DNA from: Panorpa germanica
Taxonomy: Eukaryota > Arthropoda > Insecta > Mecoptera > Panorpidae
Direction of reading: 5' to 3'
DNA: 64,000 nt
Assembly (NCBI GenBank): GCA_963678705.1
Contig: OY783212.1
Location: 3,410,001 to 3,474,000 of the forward strand
Shown here piece after piece: positions 19,846-61,362 of this stretch; positions within the stretch are counted from its first letter, which is position 1; each line of letters opens with the position of its first letter. The notes beneath the pieces are model-generated. The model saw nothing but the letters and a program-made list of their open reading frames with translations, was not told where the DNA came from and searched no databases. The position numbers and the translations under genes were made by a program.

Positions 19846-22800
19846 TTATATCAGTCTTTCTTCTGGTGGAGGTTTTAGTACAGAATCCATTTCAAGCCGA
19901 GGGTTACAATATTCTTGAGCACTAGGACTATATGTGCCCCTAGTAGCACGTTTGTTACGTGCCATCACCAATAATGCTCCAATTAAAGCACCACCAAGCC
20001 CTAAAATTCCAATAACTATTGGCACTACAATGATAGCAATATCCACCGGTGATGCACCTCCCAAAGATATCTAAAAAAATTAGGATAGTTTTAAAGGTAT
20101 ACTTTTTTAATAAGTCACCTCTCGTTTCTCATATTACCTCTTCTGTACAATTTTTCGCACCGAAGCCTTCTTTGCAAATGCATTCATACTCTGGTGTTGT
20201 GTCACACTTTTCAACACAAATGCCTTCGTTAGCACAAGGATTCACCGAACATGGATCTTCTAGATGACAATTGAATCCACATTTATCGTTAAAACACATG
20301 CAGTGATAGCTTCCAAGTGTGTTGTTACAAATGCCTTCACCTCCACAATCAATATTTCTTTCAACGCACTCATCAATGTCTCGGTTACACGTAGCTCCCT
20401 TAAATCCTGAAATAACATAAAAATATATTAACACAAAACTGCTTGATATGTGTTTGTAAATTATTAACAAGAACAACAGCTTTTGCAGGTGAAGACAATA
20501 CTCGTGTATTTAAGTATAGTGAAATTATTTTTACACCAAAAAGTAAAAGACACGGTGGCCGAAGTAGTTAAAGCATAAACACATAAGCTACCCGACAACA
20601 GCTATACTTTCAGTTTCATTTATTTTTTATAATTTGCTAAATATATTTATAGTGGATTATCTTATTGGAAGTCTGGCACAAGCGGTAAAAAAGCAATTGT
20701 TTTCAGTCACAATTACGTTCCGGCTAAATCAATTATATTTAATCACAATTGCTTTCAACGGTATGTCTGGGGTAAATGTGCCACCTCCGCCTTGTTTAAC
20801 ACGGCCCTGTGTACATATAAAAGGCCTTGATACCAATTACCAATTTGCTAAATACTAATACTCTAAATTGAAATGGAAGCATTAAAATAGTTTACTGAAA
20901 TGAAATTGAGAAGATGCTAAAGCCATAAGACTAAACCAAAAATATTAAATGCATGACCAAGTACAGTATGTAAAAGCAGACGAATTATAAATACCGGGCA
21001 TTAAATATAGGTACCAACCACAATAAACATTTATGATGTTTACGTGTTATTTTTAATTCATTACCTGTTCTAGAACAGCTGCAGGTAAATGAGTCAATTC
21101 CATCGATACAAATGCCACCATTTAAACAAGGATGACTTTTGCAATCATCGATGTTTGTTTCGCAGAAGTCATCCTCAAATCCTGGCAAACAAGCGCAGGT
21201 TGGTGTTCCGTTTTCCGTGGTTTGACAAGTTCCTCCATTCTGACACTGAACAACTGAACAATATGGTTTATCACACATAGCTCCCGTAAAACCTTTTGAA
21301 CACTCGCATGTAAAGTTGTTTCCTGTAACATCATCTGAAAGAAATGTTATTATGAATAACAAAATTCTCAAAAAAAGATAATACAAAGCGATATTTCTTA
21401 TAACCTGGTTTCTAATAATATTAAAATAAGACTTACTATGACCATCTATGCAAGAACTTCCGTTTTTGCAAGGATTATTTTCACATGTAATTAATCTAGA
21501 TGTTTCACATTGCGGTCCTGCGAAATCTGATAAACAGTGGCATTCATAATATGCAAGATGGTTTTCGCATGTACCTCCATTTAAACATGGAGAACTTTCA
21601 CATTCATCTTTCTTTGTCTTACAGAATTGGCCTTCGTAACCTTTTTGACAATCACATGTGTATCCAGCTATACCATCAATACAAGTTGAATTGTGTTCAC
21701 ATTCATTGAAAATGCATTCATCTATATTTTTTGAACAATCGTCTTCTTCATAGCCAGGTTGACATTTACAATTGTAAAATTCTGTACTGTTTAAACATTC
21801 CCCTCCATTGAAGCAATCCTAGTAAAACATAATAGTTGTTTTTGATGTAAAGATTAAAAATAGATATGGAATATTCAAATGGACTTACCTGCTCAAAACA
21901 TAAGACACATCCTTTATCAATTGTTCTATTTCCTATCAATTCGTAATGAGTGACACCATGCCAATTATCTGGATAGATTTCTTGTCTAGAATAAAAAGCT
22001 AACAAGTTGTTGCCCAATCTTACTTCTCCTAAACACCCCTTGAACATTGCTCCATTTTCAATTCCATTTACACCGTTTCTAACGTTCTTTAAGTTGAAGT
22101 CATGTTCGTAATAAGTTGAATTATCATTTTGTAAAGTTGTTAATAAATTATTGTTTTTTAATTTTTGAGCGTTGTAGTTTAATCCATCAAAAATGATATC
22201 GTCGTTAATAGCTCCTCCCAAAACAATTGTCATGTTTTCATTAAATAGATTTTCAAAACCACTTTGATTTATTTGTTCTATTAAAGCATGATCAAAACTC
22301 CAGGGTTCAAAATCTGCTTCTATTTTTCCCGATGTTATAGTAATCAACACCCGAGCCCATCCGTAATCTGAATTTTCTTTGTGGAATCGATACGAAACTG
22401 GAAAAGTTTCATCTTCAGAAAGTCTGAATTGTAGAGTAATCTGTAAATAATCATTTAGAACTCGATTTATGCGCTACTACAAAACATTTCTAATTTACAC
22501 AAAAGTGTCAGACCTGGTACGTATTGGGTATTTTTCAAGGACAAGGTCTATTACTATAAACAATAAAGGTATAAATTGTTACCTGATCTTTATAAACTGC
22601 TACTTCGAAATACATCTCTCCATTTCTGATATGGAGCATTGTGCCACCTGTTTTACTTCTGTATTGAATTTCAATTCTGTCTGGTGCAGTAGTCAAATCT
22701 TCTGTGGACGCAGGACGAAATCTGAGTGTTTCGTTGTTGCCATTGAATGTAATATTGCTAACACACTCATAACCGTCATCGAGATTGTGACACATAGATC

Positions 22801-25800
22801 CGTTGGGACATGAACGAATTTGGCAAAACTCTATATCTTGACAGAACTTTCCTTTATATCCAATGGGGCAAGTACATCTACAATAGTTTAATTTACTTAA
22901 AACATACATATATACCATAATACTCCAACTAGAGGAAACTATACTTACATAAAGTCATTCCAGGTGTTGTTACATGATGCATTATGCCGGCAGGGAGAAC
23001 TTTTACATAGATCGTCACTAACTATCCCCTCTAAGATAGATGAGTTATTGAATATGACTGTACCAAAAGGAAGATAATATGGCAAACCGGGAAAGTCCAA
23101 CGGGAAAAACTCAACTATCATGGTACCAGAGCCGTTATTAATCTATTTATAAAAAATAAAATAAATTAAATCACAAATTCTTATAGAACATAAATTTATT
23201 TTCAAAATTAAATATACCTGAACATCTTGTATAATTCCTTTAAAGTCGCTCAATCCTTCTTTAAGATCAACAATAGCTTGACGTGCTGGTCTTGTTTCAG
23301 GTATTGGTTGGGGTTTACCTCCTAGATACAACAACTGTGCATCCAGTGGACCAGTCGAAGAAATTGTTTTACGAAAGTATTCAGTACCATTGATTTTAAC
23401 TTGAATCAATGTTAAGTTACGAACAACTTCTATCAGATGATTATATCCGTTATCTAGTTTACTGCCAGACACTGTATATGCTTCAGGAGATCCATTAAAT
23501 TGTATTTTCAGTAGAAGGTCACCAGAACTTAACAAAGCAGCCACATAAGAATCTTCCGCTGATATTGTTCCATTAACAATAGGACTTCCCAAATGAAACA
23601 ACTACAAAAAAGCTTTATTAGATTTAAAACTAAATCCGAACGAACATTTTCAAATCCTGATCTACAAGTTACATAAGTCTGAAAATTACTACTGTAGCTG
23701 TAAGAAACTATTTCATTTTACCTGACCACTATCTTGCCGAGTTCTTATAAACATGGAAATATCGACACAAGTTCTTACAGCTTTGCGAGCTACTTCACTG
23801 ACATTTACAACAACAAGACTGTTAGTGGTGTTTTCATGTCCAAAAGTTGCAGCTGTCCTATCTACGGACAAATTATTTATACATAAATAAAAGTAATTTA
23901 TTTCAACATAACATAAACCAGATATAGAAGTTAAACATACTGTATTGGCAAGTTATTCCTAGATATGGTCTTTCGCAAGAACAAGAAAAGTTGCTCCATA
24001 AGTCACTGCAATGTCCTCCAGAATGACATGGGTTTGGCTGGCATTGATTAGTTCTAGGACAACCTTCATGAACATTTACCATTTTAGTAATAGCACCAGA
24101 TTTATCTGGAAGAACCTACAAAAACATTGTAATACTATTGTAATGCATTGACTGAAATTGTACTTCTTTTACAAATGTGTTTGCATATTTTATATAAAAA
24201 TACATACCCATTCTCCATTAATTACAACATCTTCTGTACATCCTACGAAATAAGGTGGTCCATGAATTAGACTTGAAAACTCTTCAATAGCGCCCCCAAG
24301 ATGAGTTGTAGGAAAACTTGTAAAAGAGGCGTTGGTAACATCATTAGTATTAATGGGATATATAGTTTGTTCTTCATTGGCTGATAATACAAGATGCGTA
24401 GAATTGATTGCAACAAAAATCTGATAAGGAAATCAACGATGTTTTAACATTTGTAATATAAAATATTAGTTTTATAAGACATAATGCGCCTATACCTTTT
24501 GCCACTTGCTATTATTTAAATTAGCTCCGATGGAGACACCTTCCCATTTATTTAAGAGAGAAGAATGTAAATTCAGCCTTCCATTCACCAGTTCGAGTAT
24601 GTAGTAAGTTAAACCAGAGCCTAAAGCAAGTAATCCATTTGGCAAAGTTGTTTTAAATCTTAACTGAATATCATAACCTTCGTCACGTGTTGTATTAACC
24701 TCGACGTAACTATTATTACCACCATGAGACATTGTTGTCACCTATATATTAAATAATTCAATATATTTTTCAAGAAATATATATATATATCAAATTTATG
24801 TGCCAACAAACCTTGTCACATGTAGCTCCTTGGAACCCAGTAACACAAGAGCAGTTAAACTTATGCTCCGTTTCGTTAATGACGTACGGTAGACAAGTTC
24901 CGTTATACAAACAGGGTGATGAATCACATCCGGTCAACTTAACGGAGCAGTTCCTTCCTCCCCAGGATCTTTCGCAATGGCAATAATACGAAGCAATGTC
25001 ATCTTTACATTGACCGTGTTCACAAGGTTTGAACCTATAAAAATGACCTGTTATTTTGCAATACTACGTAATAAGCAATGATTTATAAAAGGAAGTAAAT
25101 TTCTATTATATAATTTGATGATGTCTTGTTTCTGCCTGTTGTTTACCTGTCGCATTCATCTATATCAATCTCGCAATGAACTCCTTCGAAGCCGTCTGCA
25201 CAATCACACTCATAGCGACCCACTTTGTCATTGCACGAACCGTGAAATCCACAGGGATTGCTATCACACTCGTTGATATTCTTTTCACATTTTTTTCCTG
25301 TTGTCCCAGCTTGACAAACACATTCGTACCTAACATATGATTTAGATCAATTAAATGAAATTTTAAAAAGGCACACAAATTGGTATATAAGTATTGGTTA
25401 TTAAAATTTGATATTATTGAATTTATTTTTTAATTGATGTTAATAAAATATAGTAATTAATTAATCACCCGCTGGCATTCGCATGACTGAAAGTGCCGCT
25501 GAATACTATTGGCAGAGGGATCGCAGAAGACTTATACATTTCATATAAGGTATGATTTGATCTTTCGAGACAGGTGCCCCCAAAGAGGCATGGACTACTT
25601 TCACATTCATTTATATCTTCCTCACAGTTTTTTCCTAAAATTTTAAGGTATGTTAGAAATATATAAATAGTAGAACGTTTCATTTGTTGATAAAGTGGGG
25701 AAACGGACTGACAGCACTCGAAGTGGAATATCATTTGTATTTTTCGCCATTTATTATTGACTATTGCAATTGGGTTAAGAATTACTTCTTTGTGGTCTGA

Positions 25801-40150: not shown

Positions 40151-40368
40151 AGCCCAGCGGGCTCCGCAACACAACAGTTCTCTGGAGTATTTTGATCAGT
40201 GAAAGACGGTGAAATAGTATAGTTAATAGTGATAAAATAAAGACGTAATAAATATACAAAAGAAAAAAATATTGTGAATAAATTTCATAAAGTGTTTTTA
40301 AAGATTTAAAATTGAGTTGAGTTTGTGTTATAAAATAAAGTGGTGTAAATAATAATAAAATTAATAAC

Positions 40369-40950
40369 ATGGTTGCGATTGGAATTGATTTGGGAACAAC
40401 CTATTCCTGCGTCGCAGTTTGGCAGCACGGACATATAGAGATAATTGCAAATGACCAAGGAAATCGAACAACTCCTAGTTATGTGGCATTTACGGATACA
40501 GAAAGACTCATCGGAGATGCTGCCAAGAATCAGGTTGCTATGAACCCTGCGAATACCGTGTTCGATGCGAAACGCTTGATTGGACGTAAATTTGATGACC
40601 CTAAAATTCAGGACGACTTGAAGCATTGGCCATTCCAGGTGGTAAGCTCGAACGGAAAACCGAAGATCAAAGTAGAGTACAAAGGTGAGACAAAACAATT
40701 CGCTCCAGAGGAGATCAGCTCCATGGTTCTTACAAAAATGAAGGAAATCGCTGAAGCCTACTTAGGGCATTCTGTAAAGGACGCCGTTATCACGGTGCCG
40801 GCTTACTTTAACGATTCGCAACGTCAGGCAACCAAAGACGCCGGCGCCATCGCTGGAATCAATGTACTACGAATCATCAATGAACCCACCGCTGCTGCAC
40901 TGGCCTACGGTTTGGACAAGAACCTAAAGGGAGAGAAAAATGTGCAGTAG
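40369..40950 (+). pseudogene. Hsp70, 5' part, interrupted by mobile element
   Basis: This is the N-terminal 192 codons of a cytosolic, intronless Hsp70 chaperone. The ATPase domain begins normally with the phosphate-1 loop IDLGTTYS near residue 6. The native sequence stops after ...GEKNV. The first codon overlapping the insertion reads Gln, and the next is TAG, supplied by the element's own end. The truncated product would lack the phosphate-2 loop, half the ATPase domain, and the substrate-binding domain and lid, so it cannot work as a chaperone. No other lesion is visible in either half, so the disruption is probably recent. Confidence 0.93.
40940..40945. repeat. Target-site duplication, left copy (ATGTGC)
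   Basis: These six bases of Hsp70 coding sequence are repeated exactly at 55993-55998 on the other side of the insertion. A 6-base duplication is characteristic of Polinton/Maverick integration. Confidence 0.92.
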
Positions 40951-41015
40951 GGTAGTAGAGCCGGTTCTAGGACAGTTTGGAGTGAGGATGCATTTAGGTC
41001 ACGATATGCAGAGAG

Positions 41016-41196
41016 GGCGTGGCTAGACTTGGAAGAATGTAAAAGGGGGGTAAGGGTGGGGTAAGGAGTGAGGTGGCGTGGCTAGACAATGGGGGGTAAT
41101 AGTTGGGATAATATGAAAGAGTGAGATAGCGATATTAATTATTACGTGTGTAATAATTAATATCTAATGGTAAAGAGTGAGATACCGATATTAATT
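41016..41196 (+). repeat. Subterminal direct repeats, left arm
   Basis: GGCGTGGCTAGAC occurs at 41016-41028 and again at 41075-41087. A 23-base block starting AGAGTGAGATAGCGATATTA occurs at 41118-41140 and, with one difference, at 41174-41196. A short palindrome, AATTATTACGTGTGTAATAATT-like, sits between the second pair. Repeats this close to the tip could be binding sites for an integrase or replication protein. Confidence 0.65.
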
Positions 41197-41439
41197 CTTA
41201 TGTTTGATTTGTTATTGGTTATAAGATTATGACAGTGTTAAATTATTTATAACAGTGTATTTATAACGCATTCCTTCGAATGTAACTTGAAGCACACGTG
41301 TTAGCCGGCGTCAGCAAAATGATAATAATTTCAAACATGTCGTATATATTAGAAGAAATATCAAAACTATTGTAATTACTTAATTTATAATATATAAAAA
41401 TTTAAAATGTATATAATTCTTTTATTTATTTAGTTATTA

Positions 41440-41715
41440 TTGATATTAATTGATAATATAAGTAAGATATATTTAAACATAATATATATACCAAATAAAT
41501 TTAATTTAGGCATTGATTTAAAGTTAAATTGTGGATTACAGTGTCATTTGTTAATAGATTTAAATATGTTTAATCAATTTAAATTCTTTGATGAAATTAT
41601 AATCAATCAGAATAATTTCTGTGAAACTTTTAGAGCCGGGTTACTTTTTATATCTGAATTTGGAGACCCTGGATATGAGAGCCAAGACTCACTTGATTGG
41701 ATTCTTAATGATTAA
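41440..41715 (+). CDS. Unassigned open frame in left arm
   Basis: About 91 codons, opening with TTG rather than ATG, so it may be a fragment or lack its true start. The translation is hydrophobic and Asn/Ile-rich in the first half, contains CGLQCHLLIDLNMFNQFKFF, and ends in an acidic stretch with DPGYESQDSLDWILND. I do not recognise the family. It is the only open frame between the terminal region and the polymerase remnants, and an identical copy lies in the right arm. Confidence 0.4.
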   Translation: MILIDNISKIYLNIIYIPNKFNLGIDLKLNCGLQCHLLIDLNMFNQFKFFDEIIINQNNFCETFRAGLLFISEFGDPGYESQDSLDWILND

Positions 41716-42477
41716 TTTTATTGCACTAATTACTAATAGATTGTAAATTTTGTTGTACATAGAAAATATATCCAAATAAGGATAATTCATAAAGTATAAG
41801 GGTGCTAATTCATCCATTGAATTTACATGACTTGAACAATATGAATACAAAATTGCATGACTTAACCAAATATGGGCACAAAATTTTTATAGTACACTTT
41901 TATAGAAATTAAGACATAGTACATAAACCCATTACCAAACAGTTTAACTCGGTCTCGGTTTGATTCGGTCAAGTTCATCGATTCTCACCATTTGCTATTT
42001 CATTTGACAGTTGTTACATTGTTTCGTTCCATACACTTATAAAAAAATAGTTTTAGATACATTCTTTTATCTCAAGTTATATTTAAATAATAATAAATAT
42101 ATATAATAAAATATTATATTCTTGTCTGAGCGACGAGTATTTTGAGCAATACCGTTAGTAGGTTAAAGCATATTATTTCTTCGCATATTATGATTTCTTA
42201 GCTATATTTAAAAACTTAAAAAGGCTCTACATTACGCCTGATATAATGCAGCACTTTATACAGCTTCATACATGTTTCTCATACGCACTCAAATAATACA
42301 TTTTAGGGTATATAAAAGAGATAGTAAAATAACAAATATATAATGAATTTTTATAAATTATTGAAATAGTTACGATAGATGTGTAAATATCTCTTATTGT
42401 ATTGCAATATATTAAAAAATAACTAAATATTTGAGGTTCTGGTAGCCAACTTTATAAACATACTTTTACAGAAATGA

Positions 42478-42690
42478 GGCTCCTATTTTCTAACTGTTTA
42501 CCGGACGTCTATATATTTTCTAAATTAAGCTATGTAAGTTAAGACAAAACTATCAGAAGACATTAAATAAAAAGCAACACGGATCCTATACCTTGGAACT
42601 GGTATGAGTAGCGTAATTTGTAAAATATAGGCCTTTGAAAAATTGTCAGAAGTTATCAGCTGTCAGGTAAGCAGTTACAAAATAGGAGCC
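42478..42690. repeat. Nested inverted-repeat element, left arm
   Basis: Outer sequences GGCTCCTATTTTCTAACTG (42478 onward) and the near-inverse CAGTTACAAAATAGGAGCC (ending 42690) pair over at least 19 bases with one mismatch, and pairing continues weakly inward. The 213-base unit has no coding content. It looks like a miniature transposon that entered the element before the arm was duplicated, because it occurs in both arms. Confidence 0.6.
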
Positions 42691-42941
42691 TTTTAAGTCA
42701 TGGTTATCAAATATAACCTTTAGTGTCAGCAAGTGAGATGACATCCTGCAGAAATAATAAAATCCACTATACATTGTTAATGAACGCAGTCTTTAAAGTG
42801 TTTCTAGTTTAGATAAAAAGAAAATCGAAATATTATTTTGTGTAATTGTTTATTTTTGAAATTCATGTTCATATACAGCAAAAGTATAATAATACCTAAT
42901 AATTAACATTCTTTTGTCAAAAAATACTTAAACAATATTGC

Positions 42942-45900
42942 GTGGTGCTTTTGTGTTTAAAACAGGGCCGGTTTTACCATAAGGTGATTCCATGGAGTCT
43001 TAAGGAAATAATGCATTTGGAAATAATTATTAACAGATATAATCCTTTGCGGGGATCATCTTATATTGATTTACCAAAGAAAGTTAAAGATAAAAAGGCT
43101 ATAGTAAATGTAGTAAATAATGATCAAGCTTGCTTTATGTGGGCTATAACTTCAGCATTGTATCCAGCATCAAAAAGTATGGATAGAGTTACATCATATC
43201 AACATTATTCAAAAGTACTTAATTCAAATGGTATAGAATTACCGATGAAATTAAAAGATATTAGAACATTTGAGAAGAATAATGATATAAGTGTGAATGT
43301 TTATGGACTTGAAAATAATTTCATTGTGGGACCGTTGCATTATACATCTAAAAAGAAGAAACAACATGTTAATTTATTGTATATTGAAGATTTGAGTAAT
43401 GGACATTATTGTTGGATTAAAAATATATCAAGATTAATAAGAAGTCAATTTACTAAGCATACTAGTAAACAATTTTTGTGTAATGGATGCTTTTCATTTT
43501 TTAACACAGAAGATCAGTTAAATAGACATTTAGAATATGATTGCAATAAGATATATACAATCCTTCCTTCTAAGTATAACGCTAAGATAAATTGGGTAAT
43601 ATGATATCTCAAAACATTTTAAAATTCGATAATCATAAGAATCAATTACGCGTTCCATTTGTGATATATGGAGATTTTGAAACATTATTAAAACCCATTA
43701 GTACTTGTTATCCTGAAACTAATACATCATTTTCAAATAATATTCAAATTCATGAACCATATTAAATGTTCCTTTAATGATTCCTTAAGTAAGTTTGTTA
43801 CGTACAGAGGTATTAATTGCGTTAAAGTATTTATTGAAACAATAACTGAAGACGCTAAACAAATTTATAAAGTCTTAAATAAAGTGAAGCCTTTAAATAA
43901 ATTATCTGATTGGCAAAAACAGGAATATGATGAAGCTTCTATTTGCCATATTTGTGAAGGTATCCTCAATGGTGATAAAGTGTTAGATCATTGTCATTTA
44001 ACTGGTAATTAACGAGGAGCTGCTCATAATCATTGCAATTTAAAATTTACAATTCCAAAGTTTATACCTGTCATATTCCATAACTTAAGTAATTACGATA
44101 GCCATATAATTGTAAAAGAATTAGGTAATGATAGTGAAAAAATTGAAGTTATTCCAGAAAATAAGGTAAAGTATATATCTTTTACGAAACATATTTTGGT
44201 GGAATCAAAAGTCGATAAAAATGATAAAGTTCATAACTGCTATATTAAACTTAGATTTATTGATTCTTTACGATTTATGCATTCTAGTTTAGAAACACTT
44301 GCAAAAAATTTATTATCAGAACAATTTTTCGAATTAAAAAAATTCTATCCGAATGAAAATCATTTCAATTTATTAAAACGTAAAGGTGTATTTCCTTATG
44401 AATATGTAAATAGTAGGGATATGCTTAATGAATCTGACTTGCCATCTCAAAATAATTTTTATAGCTCACTTAATGGCTGTAATATATCTGACGATGATTA
44501 CAATCATGCCAAAATGGTTTAGTATGCATTTGAAATGAAAACATTAGGGGAATATTCAGACTTATATTTAAAGATCGATGTTCTGTTGTTAACAGATATT
44601 TTTGAAAATTTTCGAGATGTGGGCTATAAAACATATAATATACATCATTTTCAAATAATATTCAAATTCATGAACCATATTCTTTTGCTTATTATATTAA
44701 ATGTTCCTTTAATGATTCCTTAAGTAAGTTTGTTACATACAGAGGTATTAATTGCGTTAAAGTATTTATTGAAACAATAACTGATACGTACAGAGGTATT
44801 AATTGCGTTAAAGTATTTATTGAAACAATAACTGAAGACGCTAAACAAATTTATAAAGTCTTAAATAAAGTGAAGCCTTTAAATAAATTATCTGATTGGC
44901 AAAAACAGGAATATGATGAAGCTTCTATTTGCCATATTTGTGAAGGTATCCTCAATGGTGATAAAGTGTTAGATCATTGTCATTTAACTGGTAATTACCG
45001 AGGAGCTGCTCATAATCATTGCAATTTAAAATTTACAATTCCAAAGTTTATACCTGTCATATTCCATAACTTAAGTAATTACGATAGCCATATAATTGTA
45101 AAAGAATTAGGTAATGATAGTGAAAAAATTGAAGTTATTCCAGAAAATAAGGAAAAGTATATATCTTTTACAAAACATATTTTGGTGGAATCAAAAGTCG
45201 ATAAAAATGATAAAGTTCATAACTGCTATATTAAACTTAGATTTATGCATTCTAGTTTAGAAACACTTGCAAAAAATTTATTATCAGAACAATTTTTCGA
45301 ATTAAAAAATTCTATCCGAATGAAAATTATTTCAATTTATTAAAACGTAAAGGTGTATTTCCTTATGAATATGTAAATAGTAGGGATATGCTTAATGAAT
45401 CTGACTTGCCATCTCAAAATAATTTTTATAGCTCACTTAATGGCTGTAATATATCTGACGATGATTACAATTATGCCAAAATGGTTTGGTATGCATTTGA
45501 AATGAAAACATTGGGGGAATATTCAGACTTATATTTAAAGATCGATGTTCTGTTGTTAACAGATATTTTGCTATAAAACATATAATTTAGATCCCTGTCA
45601 ATATTATACAGCACCAGGACTTTCTTGGGATGCTATGTTAAATTATACAAGTATTGAATTAGAACTTTTAACAGATATTGATATGTTACATTTTATTAAA
45701 AAAGGTATAAGAGGTGGAATATCACAATGCTCTCACAGACATGGAATTGCAAATAATAAATATATGTCCAATTATGATTCAAATAAAGATTCTCAATATT
45801 TAATGTATTGGGATGCAAATAACTAAAGCTATTGAAGATAACTCAGATGTTGGTTATATATTAGAAGTCGATTTAAGATATCCTAATTATTTGCACGATG

Positions 45901-47914
45901 AACACAATGATCTACCTTTCTGTGCCGAAAATATTAAACCACCTTGCATTAAAACAAATGACGTTAAATTAATACCAAATCTAAATAACAAGTATAATTA
46001 TGTGCTTCACAATAGATCGTTAAAGCAATGTCTTAAAAATAATCTGAAAATAGATAAAATTCATAGAATTTTGGAATTTAAACAGTCTGATTGGTTAAAA
46101 AGTTATATTGATCTAAATACATTAAAAAGAAAGAACTCTGCAAATACATTTGAGAAAAAACTTTTTTAAATTAATGAATAATTTAGTTTATGGTAAAACA
46201 ATAGAAAATGTAGATAAACGTGTCGATGTAAAGTTAATAACTCATTGGGATAATATAGGAAAAACAATGGGTGCTAATACACTTATAAGTAAACCAATCA
46301 ATTTATTAAAACGTAAAGGTGTATTTCCTTATGAATATGTAAATAGTAGGGATATGCTTAATGAATCTGACTTGCCATCTCAAAATAATTTTTATAGCTC
46401 ACTTAATGGCTGTAATATATCTGACGATGATTACAATCATGCCAAAATGGTTTGGTATGCATTTGAAATGAAAACATTGGGGGAATATTCAGACTTATAT
46501 TTAAAGATCGATGTTCTGTTGTTAACAGATATTTTGCTATAAAACATATAATTTAGATCCCTGTCAATATTATACAGCACCAGGACTTTCTTGGGATGCT
46601 ATGTTAAATTATACAAGTATTGAATTAGAACTTTTAGCAGATATTGATATGTTACATTTTATTAAAAAAGGTATAAGAGGTGGAATATCACAATGCTCTC
46701 ACAGACATGGAATTGCAAATAATAAATATATGTCCAATTATGATTCAAATAAAGATTCTCAATATTTAATGTATTGGGATGCAAATAACTAAAGCTATTG
46801 AAGATAACTCAGATGTTGGTTATATATTAGAAGTCGATTTAAGATATCCTAATTATTTGCACGATGAACACAATGATCTACCTTTGTGTGCCGAAAATAT
46901 TAAACCACCTTTCATTAAAACAAATGACGTTAAATTAATATAACATATAATTACAATCATAACAGTTTCTTATTTGACATGGAGGACCATCTCTTTGTAT
47001 GTTTCCTTTGTTATAATGTTTGTAACATAATCGACGTCCTTGTATATTTTGATTTTCTCAAATGGTATAGAATTACTTTTTAACACAGAAGATCAGTTAA
47101 ATAGACATTTAGAATATGATTGCAATAAGATATATACAATCCTTCCTTCTAAGTATAACGCTAAAGATAAATTGGGTAATATGATATCTCAAAACATTTT
47201 AAAATTCGATAATCATAAGAATCAATTACGCGTTCCATTTGTGATATATGGAGATTTTGAAACATTATTAAAACCCATTAGTACTTGTTATCCTGAAACT
47301 AATACATCATTTTCAAATAATATTCAAATTCATGAACCATATTCTTTTGCTTATTATATTAAATGTTCCCTTAATGATTCCTTAAGTAAGTTTGTTACGT
47401 ACAGAGGTATTAATTGCGTTAAAGTATTTATTGAAACAATATACAGATACAGATTCATTAATATATCAAATTAAAACAGATGATATATATGACGATATTA
47501 AGTGTAATCTAGATAAATTTGATACATCTAATTATCCATTTAATAATGAATTTTCATTACCTTTAATGAACAAAGCTAAATTAGGCTTAATGAAAGATGA
47601 ATGCGCGAGTAGTATAATTTGGGAGTTTGTTGGGTTAAGGTCAAAAAATGTATGCAATTGATATTGAGGGTTCATGCACAGCTAAAGCAAAAGGAATTAA
47701 GAAAAATATTGTAAACAAATTCCATATTAAAGATTATGTAAATTGTTTATCTCAGGATAACATATTATTGATCACAATGAATACCTTTAAATCTATTAAG
47801 CATACAATTTATACTCAAATGATAAGTAAAGTAGGTCTTAGTGGAAATGATAATAAAAGATATGTATTAACTGATGGTATAAGTACTTTAGCACATGGAC
47901 ATTATAAAATTTAG
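42942..47914 (+). pseudogene. Scrambled Polinton-type DNA polymerase B, left arm
   Basis: These are remnants of a large type-B DNA polymerase in several frames. The N-terminal segment is at 42942-43604, with a C-x2-C zinc-finger-like block. Exonuclease-type DFE lies in YGDFETLL (about 47248-47271). An endonuclease VII-like block with CHIC and LDHCHLTGNYRG occurs twice (about 43938-44035 and 44930-45025). A polymerase motif-A-like VDLRYPNYL is at about 45869-45895, a motif-B-like [10 protein letters not shown] at about 46168-46197, and a motif-C-like YTDTDS at about 47440-47457. The C-terminal block is at 47648-47914. Segments near 43.84-44.57 kb recur at 44.82-45.56 kb, and 45.32-45.94 kb recurs at 46.28-46.91 kb. 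Stops and frameshifts break every copy. It is not functional as it stands. Confidence 0.85.
46939..47060. other. Unassigned stretch between polymerase fragments
   Basis: This roughly 120-base piece sits between two polymerase-derived blocks and does not match either on the plus strand. On the minus strand one frame reads through it with Cys, Arg and Gly residues (for example NKGNIQRDGPPCQIRNCYDC), suggesting an inverted fragment of another gene. The source is unknown. It is mirrored at 49878-49999. Confidence 0.3.
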
Positions 47915-48419
47915 TACTAATTTTAAGTTAAGTTTAAGTTTTGTATAAATTTATATCTGTTTTAGTTAAGATAATTAAAATGTATATTTATATAACAATT
48001 GAAAAATAGCATGATGATCATGTTAACTTTGACTTTCCAAGTTTTCTAGAGTTTAAACAAGTTTGTAATTTATGTTGAGATTCAAATAAATATTCCTTTA
48101 TGGTATAAGATAATTAAAATGTATATTTATATAACAATTGAAAAATAGCATATTTGTAAATAAATAATAATATATAAACACAAACCATTGAGTTTTATTA
48201 TTATAAGATTTAATACATCCATATAAAATAAGATACACATATTTTATTAGTAATGTTTTGTTATATATAATTCTTATATGATTAACACTGGTCATAAGAG
48301 CTCTAATATATATGCATAGACATATTAATGTATGCGTACATAAAGTGGATGACAATTGTATACGTTATATGCAGGAGCAGTACCCAACTTGAACGTACTG
48401 GGAACGTAACTTGAACGTA

Positions 48420-48518
48420 CTAGGAACGTAACTTGCATGAACGTACTGGGAACTACGTTCCCATTACGTTCAAGTTACGTTAGTTTACGTTGAATTACGT
48501 TCCAAGTTACGTTCCCAT
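48420..48518. repeat. Central spacer of the palindrome, ACGT-repeat array
   Basis: These 99 bases are the only non-mirrored part of the element. Together with the inner arm edges (48391-48551) they form an array of about 14 short units centred on ACGT. On the left they read GAACGTACTGG or GAACGTAACTT; on the right they read the inverse orientation. The switch of orientation falls near 48451, slightly left of the geometric centre at 48469. Confidence 0.85.
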
Positions 48519-49023
48519 TACGTTCAAGTTACGTTCCCAGTACGTTCAAGTTGGGTACTGCTCCTGCATATAACGTATACAATTGTCATCCACTTTATGT
48601 ACGCATACATTAATATGTCTATGCATATATATTAGAGCTCTTATGACCAGTGTTAATCATATAAGAATTATATATAACAAAACATTACTAATAAAATATG
48701 TGTATCTTATTTTATATGGATGTATTAAATCTTATAATAATAAAACTCAATGGTTTGTGTTTATATATTATTATTTATTTACAAATATGCTATTTTTCAA
48801 TTGTTATATAAATATACATTTTAATTATCTTATACCATAAAGGAATATTTATTTGAATCTCAACATAAATTACAAACTTGTTTAAACTCTAGAAAACTTG
48901 GAAAGTCAAAGTTAACATGATCATCATGCTATTTTTCAATTGTTATATAAATATACATTTTAATTATCTTAACTAAAACAGATATAAATTTATACAAAAC
49001 TTAAACTTAACTTAAAATTAGTA

Positions 49024-52000
49024 CTAAATTTTATAATGTCCATGTGCTAAAGTACTTATACCATCAGTTAATACATATCTTTTATTATCATTTCCACTAA
49101 GACCTACTTTACTTATCATTTGAGTATAAATTGTATGCTTAATAGATTTAAAGGTATTCATTGTGATCAATAATATGTTATCCTGAGATAAACAATTTAC
49201 ATAATCTTTAATATGGAATTTGTTTACAATATTTTTCTTAATTCCTTTTGCTTTAGCTGTGCATGAACCCTCAATATCAATTGCATACATTTTTTGACCT
49301 TAACCCAACAAACTCCCAAATTATACTACTCGCGCATTCATCTTTCATTAAGCCTAATTTAGCTTTGTTCATTAAAGGTAATGAAAATTCATTATTAAAT
49401 GGATAATTAGATGTATCAAATTTATCTAGATTACACTTAATATCGTCATATATATCATCTGTTTTAATTTGATATATTAATGAATCTGTATCTGTATATT
49501 GTTTCAATAAATACTTTAACGCAATTAATACCTCTGTACGTAACAAACTTACTTAAGGAATCATTAAGGGAACATTTAATATAATAAGCAAAAGAATATG
49601 GTTCATGAATTTGAATATTATTTGAAAATGATGTATTAGTTTCAGGATAACAAGTACTAATGGGTTTTAATAATGTTTCAAAATCTCCATATATCACAAA
49701 TGGAACGCGTAATTGATTCTTATGATTATCGAATTTTAAAATGTTTTGAGATATCATATTACCCAATTTATCTTTAGCGTTATACTTAGAAGGAAGGATT
49801 GTATATATCTTATTGCAATCATATTCTAAATGTCTATTTAACTGATCTTCTGTGTTAAAAAGTAATTCTATACCATTTGAGAAAATCAAAATATACAAGG
49901 ACGTCGATTATGTTACAAACATTATAACAAAGGAAACATACAAAGAGATGGTCCTCCATGTCAAATAAGAAACTGTTATGATTGTAATTATATGTTATAT
50001 TAATTTAACGTCATTTGTTTTAATGAAAGGTGGTTTAATATTTTCGGCACACAAAGGTAGATCATTGTGTTCATCGTGCAAATAATTAGGATATCTTAAA
50101 TCGACTTCTAATATATAACCAACATCTGAGTTATCTTCAATAGCTTTAGTTATTTGCATCCCAATACATTAAATATTGAGAATCTTTATTTGAATCATAA
50201 TTGGACATATATTTATTATTTGCAATTCCATGTCTGTGAGAGCATTGTGATATTCCACCTCTTATACCTTTTTTAATAAAATGTAACATATCAATATCTG
50301 CTAAAAGTTCTAATTCAATACTTGTATAATTTAACATAGCATCCCAAGAAAGTCCTGGTGCTGTATAATATTGACAGGGATCTAAATTATATGTTTTATA
50401 GCAAAATATCTGTTAACAACAGAACATCGATCTTTAAATATAAGTCTGAATATTCCCCCAATGTTTTCATTTCAAATGCATACCAAACCATTTTGGCATG
50501 ATTGTAATCATCGTCAGATATATTACAGCCATTAAGTGAGCTATAAAAATTATTTTGAGATGGCAAGTCAGATTCATTAAGCATATCCCTACTATTTACA
50601 TATTCATAAGGAAATACACCTTTACGTTTTAATAAATTGATTGGTTTACTTATAAGTGTATTAGCACCCATTGTTTTTCCTATATTATCCCAATGAGTTA
50701 TTAACTTTACATCGACACGTTTATCTACATTTTCTATTGTTTTACCATAAACTAAATTATTCATTAATTTAAAAAAGTTTTTTCTCAAATGTATTTGCAG
50801 AGTTCTTTCTTTTTAATGTATTTAGATCAATATAACTTTTTAACCAATCAGACTGTTTAAATTCCAAAATTCTATGAATTTTATCTATTTTCAGATTATT
50901 TTTAAGACATTGCTTTAACGATCTATTGTGAAGCACATAATTATACTTGTTATTTAGATTTGGTATTAATTTAACGTCATTTGTTTTAATGCAAGGTGGT
51001 TTAATATTTTCGGCACAGAAAGGTAGATCATTGTGTTCATCGTGCAAATAATTAGGATATCTTAAATCGACTTCTAATATATAACCAACATCTGAGTTAT
51101 CTTCAATAGCTTTAGTTATTTGCATCCCAATACATTAAATATTGAGAATCTTTATTTGAATCATAATTGGACATATATTTATTATTTGCAATTCCATGTC
51201 TGTGAGAGCATTGTGATATTCCACCTCTTATACCTTTTTTAATAAAATGTAACATATCAATATCTGTTAAAAGTTCTAATTCAATACTTGTATAATTTAA
51301 CATAGCATCCCAAGAAAGTCCTGGTGCTGTATAATATTGACAGGGATCTAAATTATATGTTTTATAGCAAAATATCTGTTAACAACAGAACATCGATCTT
51401 TAAATATAAGTCTGAATATTCCCCCAATGTTTTCATTTCAAATGCATACCAAACCATTTTGGCATAATTGTAATCATCGTCAGATATATTACAGCCATTA
51501 AGTGAGCTATAAAAATTATTTTGAGATGGCAAGTCAGATTCATTAAGCATATCCCTACTATTTACATATTCATAAGGAAATACACCTTTACGTTTTAATA
51601 AATTGAAATAATTTTCATTCGGATAGAATTTTTTAATTCGAAAAATTGTTCTGATAATAAATTTTTTGCAAGTGTTTCTAAACTAGAATGCATAAATCTA
51701 AGTTTAATATAGCAGTTATGAACTTTATCATTTTTATCGACTTTTGATTCCACCAAAATATGTTTTGTAAAAGATATATACTTTTCCTTATTTTCTGGAA
51801 TAACTTCAATTTTTTCACTATCATTACCTAATTCTTTTACAATTATATGGCTATCGTAATTACTTAAGTTATGGAATATGACAGGTATAAACTTTGGAAT
51901 TGTAAATTTTAAATTGCAATGATTATGAGCAGCTCCTCGGTAATTACCAGTTAAATGACAATGATCTAACACTTTATCACCATTGAGGATACCTTCACAA

Positions 52001-53996
52001 ATATGGCAAATAGAAGCTTCATCATATTCCTGTTTTTGCCAATCAGATAATTTATTTAAAGGCTTCACTTTATTTAAGACTTTATAAATTTGTTTAGCGT
52101 CTTCAGTTATTGTTTCAATAAATACTTTAACGCAATTAATACCTCTGTACGTATCAGTTATTGTTTCAATAAATACTTTAACGCAATTAATACCTCTGTA
52201 TGTAACAAACTTACTTAAGGAATCATTAAAGGAACATTTAATATAATAAGCAAAAGAATATGGTTCATGAATTTGAATATTATTTGAAAATGATGTATAT
52301 TATATGTTTTATAGCCCACATCTCGAAAATTTTCAAAAATATCTGTTAACAACAGAACATCGATCTTTAAATATAAGTCTGAATATTCCCCTAATGTTTT
52401 CATTTCAAATGCATACTAAACCATTTTGGCATGATTGTAATCATCGTCAGATATATTACAGCCATTAAGTGAGCTATAAAAATTATTTTGAGATGGCAAG
52501 TCAGATTCATTAAGCATATCCCTACTATTTACATATTCATAAGGAAATACACCTTTACGTTTTAATAAATTGAAATGATTTTCATTCGGATAGAATTTTT
52601 TTAATTCGAAAAATTGTTCTGATAATAAATTTTTTGCAAGTGTTTCTAAACTAGAATGCATAAATCGTAAAGAATCAATAAATCTAAGTTTAATATAGCA
52701 GTTATGAACTTTATCATTTTTATCGACTTTTGATTCCACCAAAATATGTTTCGTAAAAGATATATACTTTACCTTATTTTCTGGAATAACTTCAATTTTT
52801 TCACTATCATTACCTAATTCTTTTACAATTATATGGCTATCGTAATTACTTAAGTTATGGAATATGACAGGTATAAACTTTGGAATTGTAAATTTTAAAT
52901 TGCAATGATTATGAGCAGCTCCTCGTTAATTACCAGTTAAATGACAATGATCTAACACTTTATCACCATTGAGGATACCTTCACAAATATGGCAAATAGA
53001 AGCTTCATCATATTCCTGTTTTTGCCAATCAGATAATTTATTTAAAGGCTTCACTTTATTTAAGACTTTATAAATTTGTTTAGCGTCTTCAGTTATTGTT
53101 TCAATAAATACTTTAACGCAATTAATACCTCTGTACGTAACAAACTTACTTAAGGAATCATTAAAGGAACATTTAATATGGTTCATGAATTTGAATATTA
53201 TTTGAAAATGATGTATTAGTTTCAGGATAACAAGTACTAATGGGTTTTAATAATGTTTCAAAATCTCCATATATCACAAATGGAACGCGTAATTGATTCT
53301 TATGATTATCGAATTTTAAAATGTTTTGAGATATCATATTACCCAATTTATCTTAGCGTTATACTTAGAAGGAAGGATTGTATATATCTTATTGCAATCA
53401 TATTCTAAATGTCTATTTAACTGATCTTCTGTGTTAAAAAATGAAAAGCATCCATTACACAAAAATTGTTTACTAGTATGCTTAGTAAATTGACTTCTTA
53501 TTAATCTTGATATATTTTTAATCCAACAATAATGTCCATTACTCAAATCTTCAATATACAATAAATTAACATGTTGTTTCTTCTTTTTAGATGTATAATG
53601 CAACGGTCCCACAATGAAATTATTTTCAAGTCCATAAACATTCACACTTATATCATTATTCTTCTCAAATGTTCTAATATCTTTTAATTTCATCGGTAAT
53701 TCTATACCATTTGAATTAAGTACTTTTGAATAATGTTGATATGATGTAACTCTATCCATACTTTTTGATGCTGGATACAATGCTGAAGTTATAGCCCACA
53801 TAAAGCAAGCTTGATCATTATTTACTACATTTACTATAGCCTTTTTATCTTTAACTTTCTTTGGTAAATCAATATAAGATGATCCCCGCAAAGGATTATA
53901 TCTGTTAATAATTATTTCCAAATGCATTATTTCCTTAAGACTCCATGGAATCACCTTATGGTAAAACCGGCCCTGTTTTAAACACAAAAGCACCAC
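49024..53996 (-). pseudogene. Scrambled Polinton-type DNA polymerase B, right arm
   Basis: Mirror copy of the remnants at 42942-47914 on the opposite strand. It has the same order of blocks, duplications, stop codons and frameshifts. The N-terminal segment is at 53334-53996, the endonuclease VII-like blocks near 51.9 and 52.9 kb, the DTD-containing block near 49.48-49.50 kb and the C-terminal block at 49024-49290. Confidence 0.85.
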
Positions 53997-54247
53997 GCAA
54001 TATTGTTTAAGTATTTTTTGACAAAAGAATGTTAATTATTAGGTATTATTATACTTTTGCTGTATATGAACATGAATTTCAAAAATAAACAATTACACAA
54101 AATAATATTTCGATTTTCTTTTTATCTAAACTAGAAACACTTTAAAGACTGCGTTCATTAACAATGTATAGTGGATTTTATTATTTCTGCAGGATGTCAT
54201 CTCACTTGCTGACACTAAAGGTTATATTTGATAACCATGACTTAAAA

Positions 54248-54460
54248 GGCTCCTATTTTGTAACTGCTTACCTGACAGCTGATAACTTCTGACAATTTTT
54301 CAAAGGCCTATATTTTACAAATTACGCTACTCATACCAGTTCCAAGGTATAGGATCCGTGTTGCTTTTTATTTAATGTCTTCTGATAGTTTTGTCTTAAC
54401 TTACATAGCTTAATTTAGAAAATATATAGACGTCCGGTAAACAGTTAGAAAATAGGAGCC
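54248..54460. repeat. Nested inverted-repeat element, right arm
   Basis: Mirror copy of 42478-42690, with the same 19-base near-perfect terminal inverted repeats. Confidence 0.6.
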
Positions 54461-55222
54461 TCATTTCTGTAAAAGTATGTTTATAAAGTTGGCTACCAGA
54501 ACCTCAAATATTTAGTTATTTTTTAATATATTGCAATACAATAAGAGATATTTACACATCTATCGTAACTATTTCAATAATTTATAAAAATTCATTATAT
54601 ATTTGTTATTTTACTATCTCTTTTATATACCCTAAAATGTATTATTTGAGTGCGTATGAGAAACATGTATGAAGCTGTATAAAGTGCTGCATTATATCAG
54701 GCGTAATGTAGAGCCTTTTTAAGTTTTTAAATATAGCTAAGAAATCATAATATGCGAAGAAATAATATGCTTTAACCTACTAACGGTATTGCTCAAAATA
54801 CTCGTCGCTCAGACAAGAATATAATATTTTATTATATATATTTATTATTATTTAAATATAACTTGAGATAAAAGAATGTATCTAAAACTATTTTTTTATA
54901 AGTGTATGGAACGAAACAATGTAACAACTGTCAAATGAAATAGCAAATGGTGAGAATCGATGAACTTGACCGAATCAAACCGAGACCGAGTTAAACTGTT
55001 TGGTAATGGGTTTATGTACTATGTCTTAATTTCTATAAAAGTGTACTATAAAAATTTTGTGCCCATATTTGGTTAAGTCATGCAATTTTGTATTCATATT
55101 GTTCAAGTCATGTAAATTCAATGGATGAATTAGCACCCTTATACTTTATGAATTATCCTTATTTGGATATATTTTCTATGTACAACAAAATTTACAATCT
55201 ATTAGTAATTAGTGCAATAAAA

Positions 55223-55498
55223 TTAATCATTAAGAATCCAATCAAGTGAGTCTTGGCTCTCATATCCAGGGTCTCCAAATTCAGATATAAAAAGTAACCC
55301 GGCTCTAAAAGTTTCACAGAAATTATTCTGATTGATTATAATTTCATCAAAGAATTTAAATTGATTAAACATATTTAAATCTATTAACAAATGACACTGT
55401 AATCCACAATTTAACTTTAAATCAATGCCTAAATTAAATTTATTTGGTATATATATTATGTTTAAATATATCTTACTTATATTATCAATTAATATCAA
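55223..55498 (-). CDS. Unassigned open frame in right arm
   Basis: Identical mirror copy of the frame at 41440-41715. It also lacks an ATG start, and the family is not recognised. Confidence 0.4.
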   Translation of the reverse strand: MILIDNISKIYLNIIYIPNKFNLGIDLKLNCGLQCHLLIDLNMFNQFKFFDEIIINQNNFCETFRAGLLFISEFGDPGYESQDSLDWILND

Positions 55499-55741
55499 TA
55501 ATAACTAAATAAATAAAAGAATTATATACATTTTAAATTTTTATATATTATAAATTAAGTAATTACAATAGTTTTGATATTTCTTCTAATATATACGACA
55601 TGTTTGAAATTATTATCATTTTGCTGACGCCGGCTAACACGTGTGCTTCAAGTTACATTCGAAGGAATGCGTTATAAATACACTGTTATAAATAATTTAA
55701 CACTGTCATAATCTTATAACCAATAACAAATCAAACATAAG

Positions 55742-55922
55742 AATTAATATCGGTATCTCACTCTTTACCATTAGATATTAATTATTACACACGTAATAAT
55801 TAATATCGCTATCTCACTCTTTCATATTATCCCAACTATTACCCCCCATTGTCTAGCCACGCCACCTCACTCCTTACCCCACCCTTACCCCCCTTTTACA
55901 TTCTTCCAAGTCTAGCCACGCC
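55742..55922 (-). repeat. Subterminal direct repeats, right arm
   Basis: Mirror copies of the repeats at 41016-41196. The GTCTAGCCACGCC units are at 55851-55863 and 55910-55922, and the 23-base units at 55742-55764 and 55798-55820. Confidence 0.65.
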
Positions 55923-55992
55923 CTCTCTGCATATCGTGACCTAAATGCATCCTCACTCCAAACTGTCCTAGAACCGGCTCTACTACCCTACT

Positions 55993-55998
55993 ATGTGC
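55993..55998. repeat. Target-site duplication, right copy (ATGTGC)
   Basis: Exact repeat of 40940-40945. The Hsp70 reading frame resumes through this copy, with GTG at 55995-55997 repeating the last intact Val codon of the left half. Confidence 0.92.
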
Positions 55999-57332
55999 TC
56001 ATTTTCGATCTTGGAGGCGGTACCTTCGACGTATCCATCCTGACCATCGACGAAGGTTCGCTATTTGAAGTAAAATCTACCGCAGGGGACACACATCTCG
56101 GCGGGGAGGATTTCGATAATCGGCTGGTTGATTTCTTAGCAGGCGAATTTAAGAGAAAATTTAAAAAAGATATCAAAAGCAATCCCAGAGCACTGCGCAG
56201 ATTGAGAACGGCGGCAGAGAGGGCGAAGCGGACGTTGTCCTCCAGCACGGAAGCCACGATCGAAGTAGATGCACTCCTGGACGGCATTGACTACTACACT
56301 AAAATAAGTCGTGCACGATTCGAAGAGCTCAATGCAGATCTGTTTCGCGGCACATTGCAGCCCGTGGAGAAGGCCCTGACCGACGCCAAGTTAGACAAGA
56401 GCTCCATAAATGACATCGTCATGGTAGGGGGCTCCACACGTATACCAAAAATCCAAAATCTTATTCAAAATTTATTCAATGGAAAAACACTGAATCTGTC
56501 CATTAATCCCGACGAAGCCATAGCTTACGGGGCTGGTGTCCAGGCTGCGATCCTGACTGGGGACACTAGCAGCAAGATCCAGGACGTGCTCCTGGTGGAT
56601 GTAACGCCGTTGTCTTTAGGTATCGAGACCGCAGGCGGTGTCATGAGCAAGATCGTCGAGCGCAACGCCCGCATCCCCTGCAAGCAGTCCCAGATCTTCT
56701 CTACGTACGCAGACAACCAGACCGGAGTCACCATCCAGGTATTCGAAGGAGAGCGAGCCATGACTAAAGACAACAATCTCCTGGGGACCTTTGATCTGAT
56801 GGGCATACCACCAGCTCCCAGGGGGGTTCCGAAAATAGATGTTACATTCGATTTGGACGCCAACGGTATTCTTAATGTCTCGGCAAAGGAAGATAGCACA
56901 GGAAAGTCGAAAAAAATCACGATCAAGAACGACAAGGGTCGACTATCACAGGCGGAGATCGACCGTATGCTTTCGGAGGCTGAAAAGTACAAGGATGATG
57001 ACGAGAAACAGCGAAAGAGAGTCGCCGCTCGCCATCAGCTGGAGACCTATGTGTTCAACGTGAAGCAAGCCGCCGAGGAAGCGAAGACCCAAGGAAATAT
57101 CAGCGACACCGACAAGGCGACCGTGTCCAAGAACTGTGAGGACACCGTGTCCTGGTTGGACAACAACATCCTCGCCGAAGAAGATGAATATCAATACCGC
57201 CTTCAGGAGTTGCAGAAAACATGCAGTCCTATCATGACGAAAATACACCAGGGAGGTGCTTCTAGGGCTAGACCTGAACCAAATGATGCAGGTGATAACG
57301 CACAACGACCCACCGTTGAAGAAGTCGATTAA
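55998..57332 (+). pseudogene. Hsp70, 3' part, displaced by mobile element
   Basis: This is the remaining 444 codons of the same Hsp70, starting at the Leu after the insertion point. It opens with the phosphate-2 loop [10 protein letters not shown], runs through the rest of the ATPase domain, the linker and substrate-binding domain and the helical lid, and ends in EEVD, the C-terminal signal of cytosolic Hsp70 that binds TPR co-chaperones. The two halves sum to 636 residues, the usual family length, and both are free of other lesions. This half has no promoter of its own in view. Its coding sequence is much more GC-rich than the surroundings, as is common for highly expressed heat-shock genes. 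Confidence 0.93.
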
Positions 57333-60622: not shown

Positions 60623-60807
60623 TAAAGAAAAATAATTCATAGCAACAATCCAATTGTTACTCATTTTTATTTGATACGTCGTAGTTGGCTATTATATCAG
60701 ACTATCGAAACGATTTCTGTTTTCAAGTAAGAATAAGGATAAAACGCAATTTTTTACAATTGGTATTTGGATATAACGTATATTTTTTAAATCAACAAAT
60801 CGATAGC

Positions 60808-61362
60808 ATGCGAAAGATGTTTACAATTGTACCTGCAGTTCTCAGCCGTTTGCCGTTGCACCAGGCGATTGACAAGCGCAGCTTCAGCAGGTCCATCAAG
60901 CTATGTTTGCCGAGATTGCTGCATTCGCGGTCATTCGACGAATACTACAACCCTTGGAAGTCACTCTTTGAACGAGAAAACGATTCCACGGTCACAGCAT
61001 TCAAAGATAAGTTCCAAGTTTGTGTTAACGTTCAACAATTTGCCCCTGAAGAAATATCTGTAAAAGTACAAGATGGAGTACTTGTTATTCAAGGAAAGCA
61101 TGAAGAAAAGAAAGACGACTATGGCTTCGTTTCCCGACAGTTTCTTAGACGCTACATGCTGCCTGCAGGACATGAAGGTAAGGACGTTGTAAGCAGTTTG
61201 TCCGCAGATGGAATCCTCACGGTCACAGCTCCGAAGAATACAGACGACTCTCCAACATCTGAACGCGTGGTGCCCATAGCAAAAACTGAGGCTCCTCACA
61301 ACTTACCGGATAAAAGTTCAAAAATGAAAAAAATTCAAGGTGAAAGTTCAAAGGTGGAATAA
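60808..61362 (+). CDS. Small heat-shock protein (alpha-crystallin domain)
   Basis: ATP-independent holdase that binds unfolding proteins as large oligomers; 184 residues in one exon. The alpha-crystallin domain spans about 65-143, with the FAPEEISVKVQDGVLVIQGK strand block and the conserved close LSADGILTVTAP. A V-P-I motif (155-157), which docks neighbouring subunits, lies in the C-terminal tail. An in-frame TTG/ATG-poor extension upstream to 60685 exists, but the ATG at 60808 was chosen because it is the first ATG of the frame near the conserved part. Residues 1-41 have several Arg/Lys and hydrophobic residues with only one acidic residue, which resembles a mitochondrial targeting peptide. 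That reading is inference; Drosophila Hsp22 is a known mitochondrial example. Confidence 0.9.
   Translation: MRKMFTIVPAVLSRLPLHQAIDKRSFSRSIKLCLPRLLHSRSFDEYYNPWKSLFERENDSTVTAFKDKFQVCVNVQQFAPEEISVKVQDGVLVIQGKHEEKKDDYGFVSRQFLRRYMLPAGHEGKDVVSSLSADGILTVTAPKNTDDSPTSERVVPIAKTEAPHNLPDKSSKMKKIQGESSKVE

Follow-up and report, generated by a model that had tools for sequence, protein, structure and literature searches.

How does an inserted element come to consist of two halves that mirror each other to the last base? The question is raised by a stretch of 64,000 nucleotides from the mecopteran insect Panorpa germanica (contig C9, 3410001-3474000; hereafter the window), in which an Hsp70 gene is interrupted by a giant palindrome related to Polintons. 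The searches covered the same 464-Mb genome, and the results describe this one genome as assembled. Together they suggest that the insertion belongs to a dispersed family of snap-back satellites, derived from Polintons and mobilised by helper elements, a reading that we hold with a probability of about two in three.

The palindromic insertion and its dispersed copies

When the left arm of the element was aligned base by base with the right, the two were reverse complements at 7474 of 7474 positions (paired positions summing to 96938), and each of 19 other pairing offsets gave 29-32% complementarity. This confirmed a preliminary description of the element, in which equal inverted repeats were said to make up the whole of it. 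The tips read AGTAGGGTAGTAG...CTACTACCCTACT (AGTAGGG...CCCTACT), and the 6-bp target duplication ATGTGC flanks the element on both sides. The host flanks, joined, gave a single open Hsp70 frame of 646 aa ending in EEVD, and therefore the insertion is clean and looks recent. A profile search found one PF03175 (DNA_pol_B_2) match in the arm (E = 3.6e-8), whereas the other seven of the eight frames submitted had no match at 0.001. The arm carries duplicated pieces of the polymerase gene (polB), among them two of about 900 bp with 90% identity and two of 666 bp with 98% identity. The 6-bp duplication, the AG...CT tips, the PF03175 fragment and the occurrence of these tips in gene-bearing elements all agree with the derivation from a Polinton proposed at first. 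The 99-bp centre, on the other hand, turned out not to be unique DNA: it belongs to an array of 11-mers that is imperfectly inverted.

A 1-kb query from the window tip gave 41 matches (from the best 40 of 1359 candidates), which resolved into 16 inverted pairs including the window, eight unpaired hits and a small additional piece. Of the other 15 inverted pairs, ten were retrieved, each as two 10-kb pieces. Inverted arms were present in all ten and extended over most of the arm in nine; in C1 18.9M the arms were inverted over 1828 bp at 100% identity. The tip-to-tip length was 14.1-15.7 kb in the eight copies measured; C131 (17.3 kb between tips) and C1 18.9M (22.6 kb) contain other sequence inside. 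An exact 6-bp target duplication, at different sites, was found in eight of the eleven copies including the window, and C131 matched at five of six bases. Further copies bounded by the same tip, for which the preliminary description had suggested a search, thus do exist, and its picture of a single event gave way to that of a dispersed family.

Perfect arms in the window copy alone would have been suspicious, as one read or contig folded back on itself during assembly would produce the same picture. The ten further copies differ from it in flanks, lengths and arm variants, and different flanks with matching duplications are not expected of an assembly fold-back; the window copy has, in addition, its exact ATGTGC duplication and a host frame that is open once the element is taken out. 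We therefore regard an assembly artefact as extremely improbable, in agreement with the view taken in the preliminary description.

Arm symmetry within and between copies

Over the first 1820 bp, nine of the eleven copies showed no difference between left and right arms, and the number of differences between copies ranged from 0 to 32. The exceptions were C1 8.8M, with eight arm differences, and C131, with five over 1141 aligned positions. When half-lengths of 7.1-7.9 kb were compared without the central array, six of eight copies had 0-2 arm substitutions; C1 0.9M had nine and C1 8.8M had 35. As a separate observation, seven of the nine differences in C1 0.9M were G in the left and A in the right arm (both read inward), and six of these seven lie 6.8-7.6 kb from the tip.

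Private changes were then scored in six copies over about 5.4 kb of alignment. Substitutions present in both arms of one copy numbered 1 in the window, 0 in C6, 10 in C1 8.8M, 0 in C12, 0 in C2 and 12 in C3 21.7M, and those in one arm only numbered 0, 0, 23, 0, 0 and 2 in the same order; C12 and C2, being identical over this stretch, could show no private changes. The 23 one-arm sites of C1 8.8M were split into 7 left and 16 right, and none was present in another copy. Similarly, C131 had 13 one-arm sites over about 2.6 kb (9 left, 4 right), and one derived state was present elsewhere. The arms of these two copies have diverged independently since insertion.

The symmetry was also seen at the tips. 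A degenerate form of the tip pattern occurs 191 times forward and 189 times reverse in the genome (backwards control 0), and among the first 100 of these 380 matches, 22 of which were unpaired, the tip variants were concordant in 37 of 39 tip pairs, against a mean of 5.7 and a maximum of 15 in 10,000 shuffles. Because the arms of young copies are identical or nearly so though the copies differ from one another, and the arms of two older copies have diverged, the symmetry was most simply restored at or before insertion. Alternatively, the palindrome could have formed once, with host gene conversion keeping the arms identical after insertion as in Y-chromosome palindromes. Identical arms in differing copies would be expected then too, and the private substitution of the window does sit in both arms. 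The unconverted divergence in C1 8.8M (23 sites, 7/16) and C131 (13 sites, 9/4) speaks against conversion as the main cause, and we consider it unlikely. These counts would be compatible with symmetry at birth combined with occasional conversion, two copies being few.

Re-symmetrised arms also bear on the age of the palindrome. The shared lesions of the two arms had been taken to mean that decay came before the arm duplication. If the arms are made alike anew, such lesions are silent on the order of events and therefore do not date the palindrome; moreover, in two palindromes that contain the same centre motif, the polB frame runs uninterrupted for 1262-1267 aa in each arm. The proposed order thus lost its support.

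Polinton relatives, the shared centre and polB lineages

Ordinary elements with the same tip pattern, carrying capsid and polB genes, were found. When ten tip pairs were probed with 400 bp taken 3 kb inside each tip, a clean palindrome was seen in one. Two of the non-inverted pairs were characterised further. C1:1910732-1927750 has a terminal repeat of 575 bp at 99.5% identity, the duplication GCTGTC and, just inside its left terminal repeat, units of the 11-mer array. In C1:8684736-8707034, a gene for a double jelly-roll capsid protein was identified (PF21738, E = 2.3e-24). Capsid matches in the genome numbered at least 126 (the best 126 of 533 candidates), and most were open frames of about 406 aa; the profile gave none in 14 control genomes. 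A scan of viral contigs with a polB fragment gave no match, nor did a Protein Data Bank search with a capsid probe.

Long inverted repeats with a repeat array are also a mark of Foldback elements (Drosophila FB and Galileo), which are defined by kinship to the P superfamily and by a target duplication length of their own. A Foldback-type DNA transposon unrelated to Polintons could have acquired polB fragments, and its very long inverted repeats and internal tandem repeats would resemble what is seen here. The family differs from Foldback elements in tips, target duplication and gene relatives, and it has its tips, 6-bp duplication and subterminal blocks in common with elements carrying a double jelly-roll capsid gene and polB. 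A Foldback origin is therefore very improbable.

The family has a distinct centre. A 27-base motif of the centre has 269 forward and 254 reverse occurrences in the genome (backwards control 0; first 100 matches listed), and on contig C1 it is present in 11 of 23 tip pairs. Nine of these 11 have all hits within about 850 bp of the midpoint, and nine of the 11 have the motif in both orientations. A capsid gene was listed in 6 of 12 C1 tip pairs without the motif vs 0 of 11 with it (Fisher p = 0.014), counts that come from the matches listed, among which the capsid gene of C1:8684736 is missing, so that some were missed. The median length was 15.3 kb for 17 palindromes (read as such or taken by centre motif, C1 18.9M left out; span 12.1-15.7 kb) and 16.4 kb for 11 tip pairs in which a capsid gene was listed (tips discordant in two of the 11).

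Length at the centre varies among near-identical copies. The window and C6 are 99.97% identical over 7525 bp, yet the centre makes C6 longer by 210 bp; C12 and C2 do not differ over the stretch of about 5.4 kb, yet their lengths are 22 bp apart. These comparisons show that the centre is unstable in length. The stretch 48380-48558 (179 bases) of the window folds at -76 kcal/mol vs -22.5 for shuffles, much of the energy coming from the 40 bases at each end that are perfect arms. Among ten centres searched, a perfect 38-bp inverted repeat (GAACGTAATTC...) was found in four, and that of C1:5327977 had an AT run only. The centre of C4 2.7M (L015, 8041-8660) is perfectly symmetric over at least 620 bp about an AT microsatellite, without a spacer, and contains the 38-bp repeat.

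The claim that the element has no genes of its own held for the window copy, in which only polB fragments were found, and failed for other palindromes of the kind. In C1:5327977-5343342, which has the centre module of the window family and a polB about 68% identical to that of the window over 203 bp, the open frames around a 400-bp polB probe are 1262 and 1267 aa. The probe taken from this palindrome was 99-100% identical in ordinary elements, with a single occurrence in each, and formed inverted pairs in other elements (best 40 of 744 candidates). In C1:8961781-8975320, whose centre was not read and whose motif lies off-centre, the frames are 1263 and 1263 aa and the midpoint of the polB probe coincides to the base with that of the tips. 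A pair on C7 (tips not read) has frames of 1263 and 649 aa, and tip pairs taken as ordinary have frames of 608-1269 aa around the probe; all of these are open reading frames, which is not proof of working genes. A third polB lineage, 92% identical to the probe, is carried by C5:7333298-7342835 (frames of 912 and 739 aa), with polB and centre-module midpoints coinciding base-exactly. That several arm lineages occur with one centre suggests that arms were exchanged and then made symmetric again. In addition, three tandem polB matches were noted at C97:5321, 15201 and 25081, spaced exactly 9880 bp apart, each with a 1269-aa frame.

About ten copies belong to another polB lineage, whose frames are about 1347 aa long (e.g. 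C3:15599351, C2:9878692 and C9:6908113). This lineage was considered as parent and rejected, since none of 15 loci had a blastn match to the arm and none of the five tested had a tblastn match. The parent nearest to the polB lineage of the window was not found by these searches, none of which was able to separate a parent from palindromic copies.

Mismatch repair of a long hairpin intermediate, and not self-copying at the centre, might also equalise the arms in each cycle. Folded on itself, one strand of the element would give a stem of about 7.5 kb, and the same symmetry at birth is predicted. By itself such repair fails to explain a centre of variable length beside nearly fixed arms, or the replacement of arms on both sides. 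We consider it somewhat unlikely; our estimate for it overlaps that for the snap-back reading, from which it differs in the last step only.

Proposed replication cycle, known systems and feature coordinates

We infer the following cycle, in which enzyme supply, fold-back, arm exchange and packaging are all proposed steps. The integrase and protein-primed polymerase of ordinary Polinton copies would act in trans on the shared tips, and in some palindromes the polymerase might come from their own arms. During extrachromosomal replication, a growing or displaced strand would fold back at the central inverted array and copy its own arm out to the tip, so that one arm would template both. An arm may recombine with a helper, and the next fold-back cycle would place the new arm on both sides; this would explain why different polB lineages have one common centre.

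Several observations weigh against this reading. The fold-back step is read from the symmetry, and no replication intermediate was seen. The sampling is biased towards symmetric copies, because the ten examined came from hits ordered by their likeness to the window tip and both arms of each were among those hits; eight of the 40 scored tip hits were singles. C1 0.9M and C1 8.8M have no matching target duplication, and one arm of C4 2.7M contains about 986 bp that the other lacks. The argument against gene conversion is carried by two copies, C1 8.8M, without a duplication, and C131, on a 36-kb contig. Of the ten tip pairs probed, three gave partial inverted matches (58-132 bp) and six gave none. 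The centres of the window, C6, C12 and C2 lack a perfect short inverted repeat (ten centres searched), and in that of the window none was found with arms of at least 9 and a spacer of at most 6. On C1, the motif is off the midpoint by 0.8-1.1 kb in one pair and by 3.8-4.0 kb in C1 18.9M, and is in one orientation only in two of the 11 pairs. A further 18 motif clusters on C1 lie outside these pairs, nine of them in a single orientation, and therefore the motif also occurs in incomplete or non-mirrored copies.

A possible counterpart from the other end was also found. C3:16084474-16100892 carries at both ends, inverted, a gene that ordinary elements have away from polB (short, partial matches); the probe lies 3.0 kb from the left and 2.7 kb from the right tip, and among 40 listed matches further inverted pairs were present at C54:254840/265780 and C7:4990173/4997721. 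This element, whose centre was not read, resembles a reciprocal class that would derive from the end on the capsid side. Adeno-associated virus (AAV) forms symmetric and asymmetric snapback genomes from either end (5'-SBG and 3'-SBG), as described in PMC8235507. The likeness lies in self-complementary molecules from one end of a linear genome and in the one element here that resembles a reciprocal class; the AAV forms are subgenomes in particles (PMC8235507), unlike the integrated Polinton-type copies here, which form lineages of their own. AAV offers the nearest described analogue that we found. In the family, one genome end is duplicated in inverted orientation around a variable centre, as in snap-back defective genomes, so that the likeness to such genomes of other linear replicators drawn in the preliminary description stands. 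More tentatively, and with rather more doubt than confidence, the observations may be joined into one scheme. Satellites would arise from both Polinton ends, as in AAV; the polB-end class would have a shared centre, possibly two uninterrupted polB frames, no capsid gene, arm exchange and symmetry renewed with each move, and, being packaged in helper capsids, would stay close to helper length through internal duplication.

The family resembles Polintons/Mavericks in its 6-bp target duplication, AG...CT tips, polB and the tip pattern of gene-bearing elements in the same genome. It differs in that its inverted repeats are essentially the whole element, vs 575 bp in the ordinary element measured, and in having a dedicated centre module, with no capsid match listed in the 11 C1 centre-motif elements. 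Miniature inverted-repeat transposable elements (MITEs) and other internally deleted transposons are presumably mobilised in trans, and the family is like MITEs in this presumed mobilisation; unlike them, the palindromes are little shortened (12.1-15.7 kb) and the window arms carry duplicated polB pieces. A literature search of titles and abstract openings, which covered few subscription journals and no Repbase reports, gave no palindromic Polintons among the matches listed.

To our knowledge, Polinton replication has been deduced from gene content rather than observed. A family with one arm repeatedly templating the other would imply a replicative DNA intermediate and offer a means of testing protein-primed, strand-displacement replication from genome sequence alone. 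It would also extend snap-back defective genomes from virus particles to an inherited, multiplying virus-derived family. If the more tentative two-ended scheme is true, the arms would be a heritable record of Polinton replication via a single-stranded snap-back intermediate. The family is also a natural set of giant palindromes in a eukaryotic genome, one of them without a spacer at its centre. The features of the window copy are collected in Table 1.

Table 1. Coordinates of the palindromic element and the interrupted host gene in the window.
Feature	Position	Strand	Basis
5' part of interrupted Hsp70, including left target duplication	40339..40945	+	Open reading frame (ORF); joined-flank frame 646 aa
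Left 6-bp target duplication ATGTGC	40940..40945	.	Flank comparison
Left arm, 7474 bp	40946..48419	+	7474/7474 complementary to right arm
Left tip AGTAGGGTAGTAGAGCCG, pattern also in ordinary Polintons	40946..40963	+	Genome-wide tip-pattern matches
Subterminal stretch	40977..41281	+	Three blocks with 96-99% identity to the terminal repeat (575 bp) of an ordinary Polinton
Putative polB N-terminal part, zinc-finger-like stretch at end	42903..43604	+	Resemblance to kin frames; Pfam matches under curated cut-offs
Duplicated polB segment of ~0.9 kb, first copy	43722..44602	+	Arm 2777-3657, 90% identical to arm 3695-4624
polB fragment PF03175	44013..44522	+	E 3.6e-8
Duplicated polB segment of ~0.9 kb, second copy; Endonuclease VII-like stretch	44640..45569	+	PF02945, E 3.8e-5
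Duplicated polB segment of 666 bp, first copy	45332..45997	+	Arm 4387-5052, 98.2% identical to arm 5353-6017
Duplicated polB segment of 666 bp, second copy	46298..46962	+	Arm self-comparison
Centre motif (27-mer)	48359..48385	+	Mirror image at 48553-48579
Central array of 11/22-mers, GAACGTAACTT type	48386..48552	.	Orientation flips at ~48453
99-bp centre, imperfect symmetry	48420..48518	.	Arm pairing
Right arm, exact reverse complement of left	48519..55992	-	Arm pairing
Mirror copy of PF03175 polB fragment	52416..52925	-	ORF listing
Right 6-bp target duplication ATGTGC	55993..55998	.	Flank comparison
3' part of Hsp70, ending PTVEEVD	55999..57332	+	ORF; joined-flank frame

Elsewhere in the window, two further features were noted from translations alone. 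Exons of EGF/laminin-G type resembling Crumbs lie at 20985-23601 (-), and a small heat-shock-like open frame lies at 60685-61362 (+).

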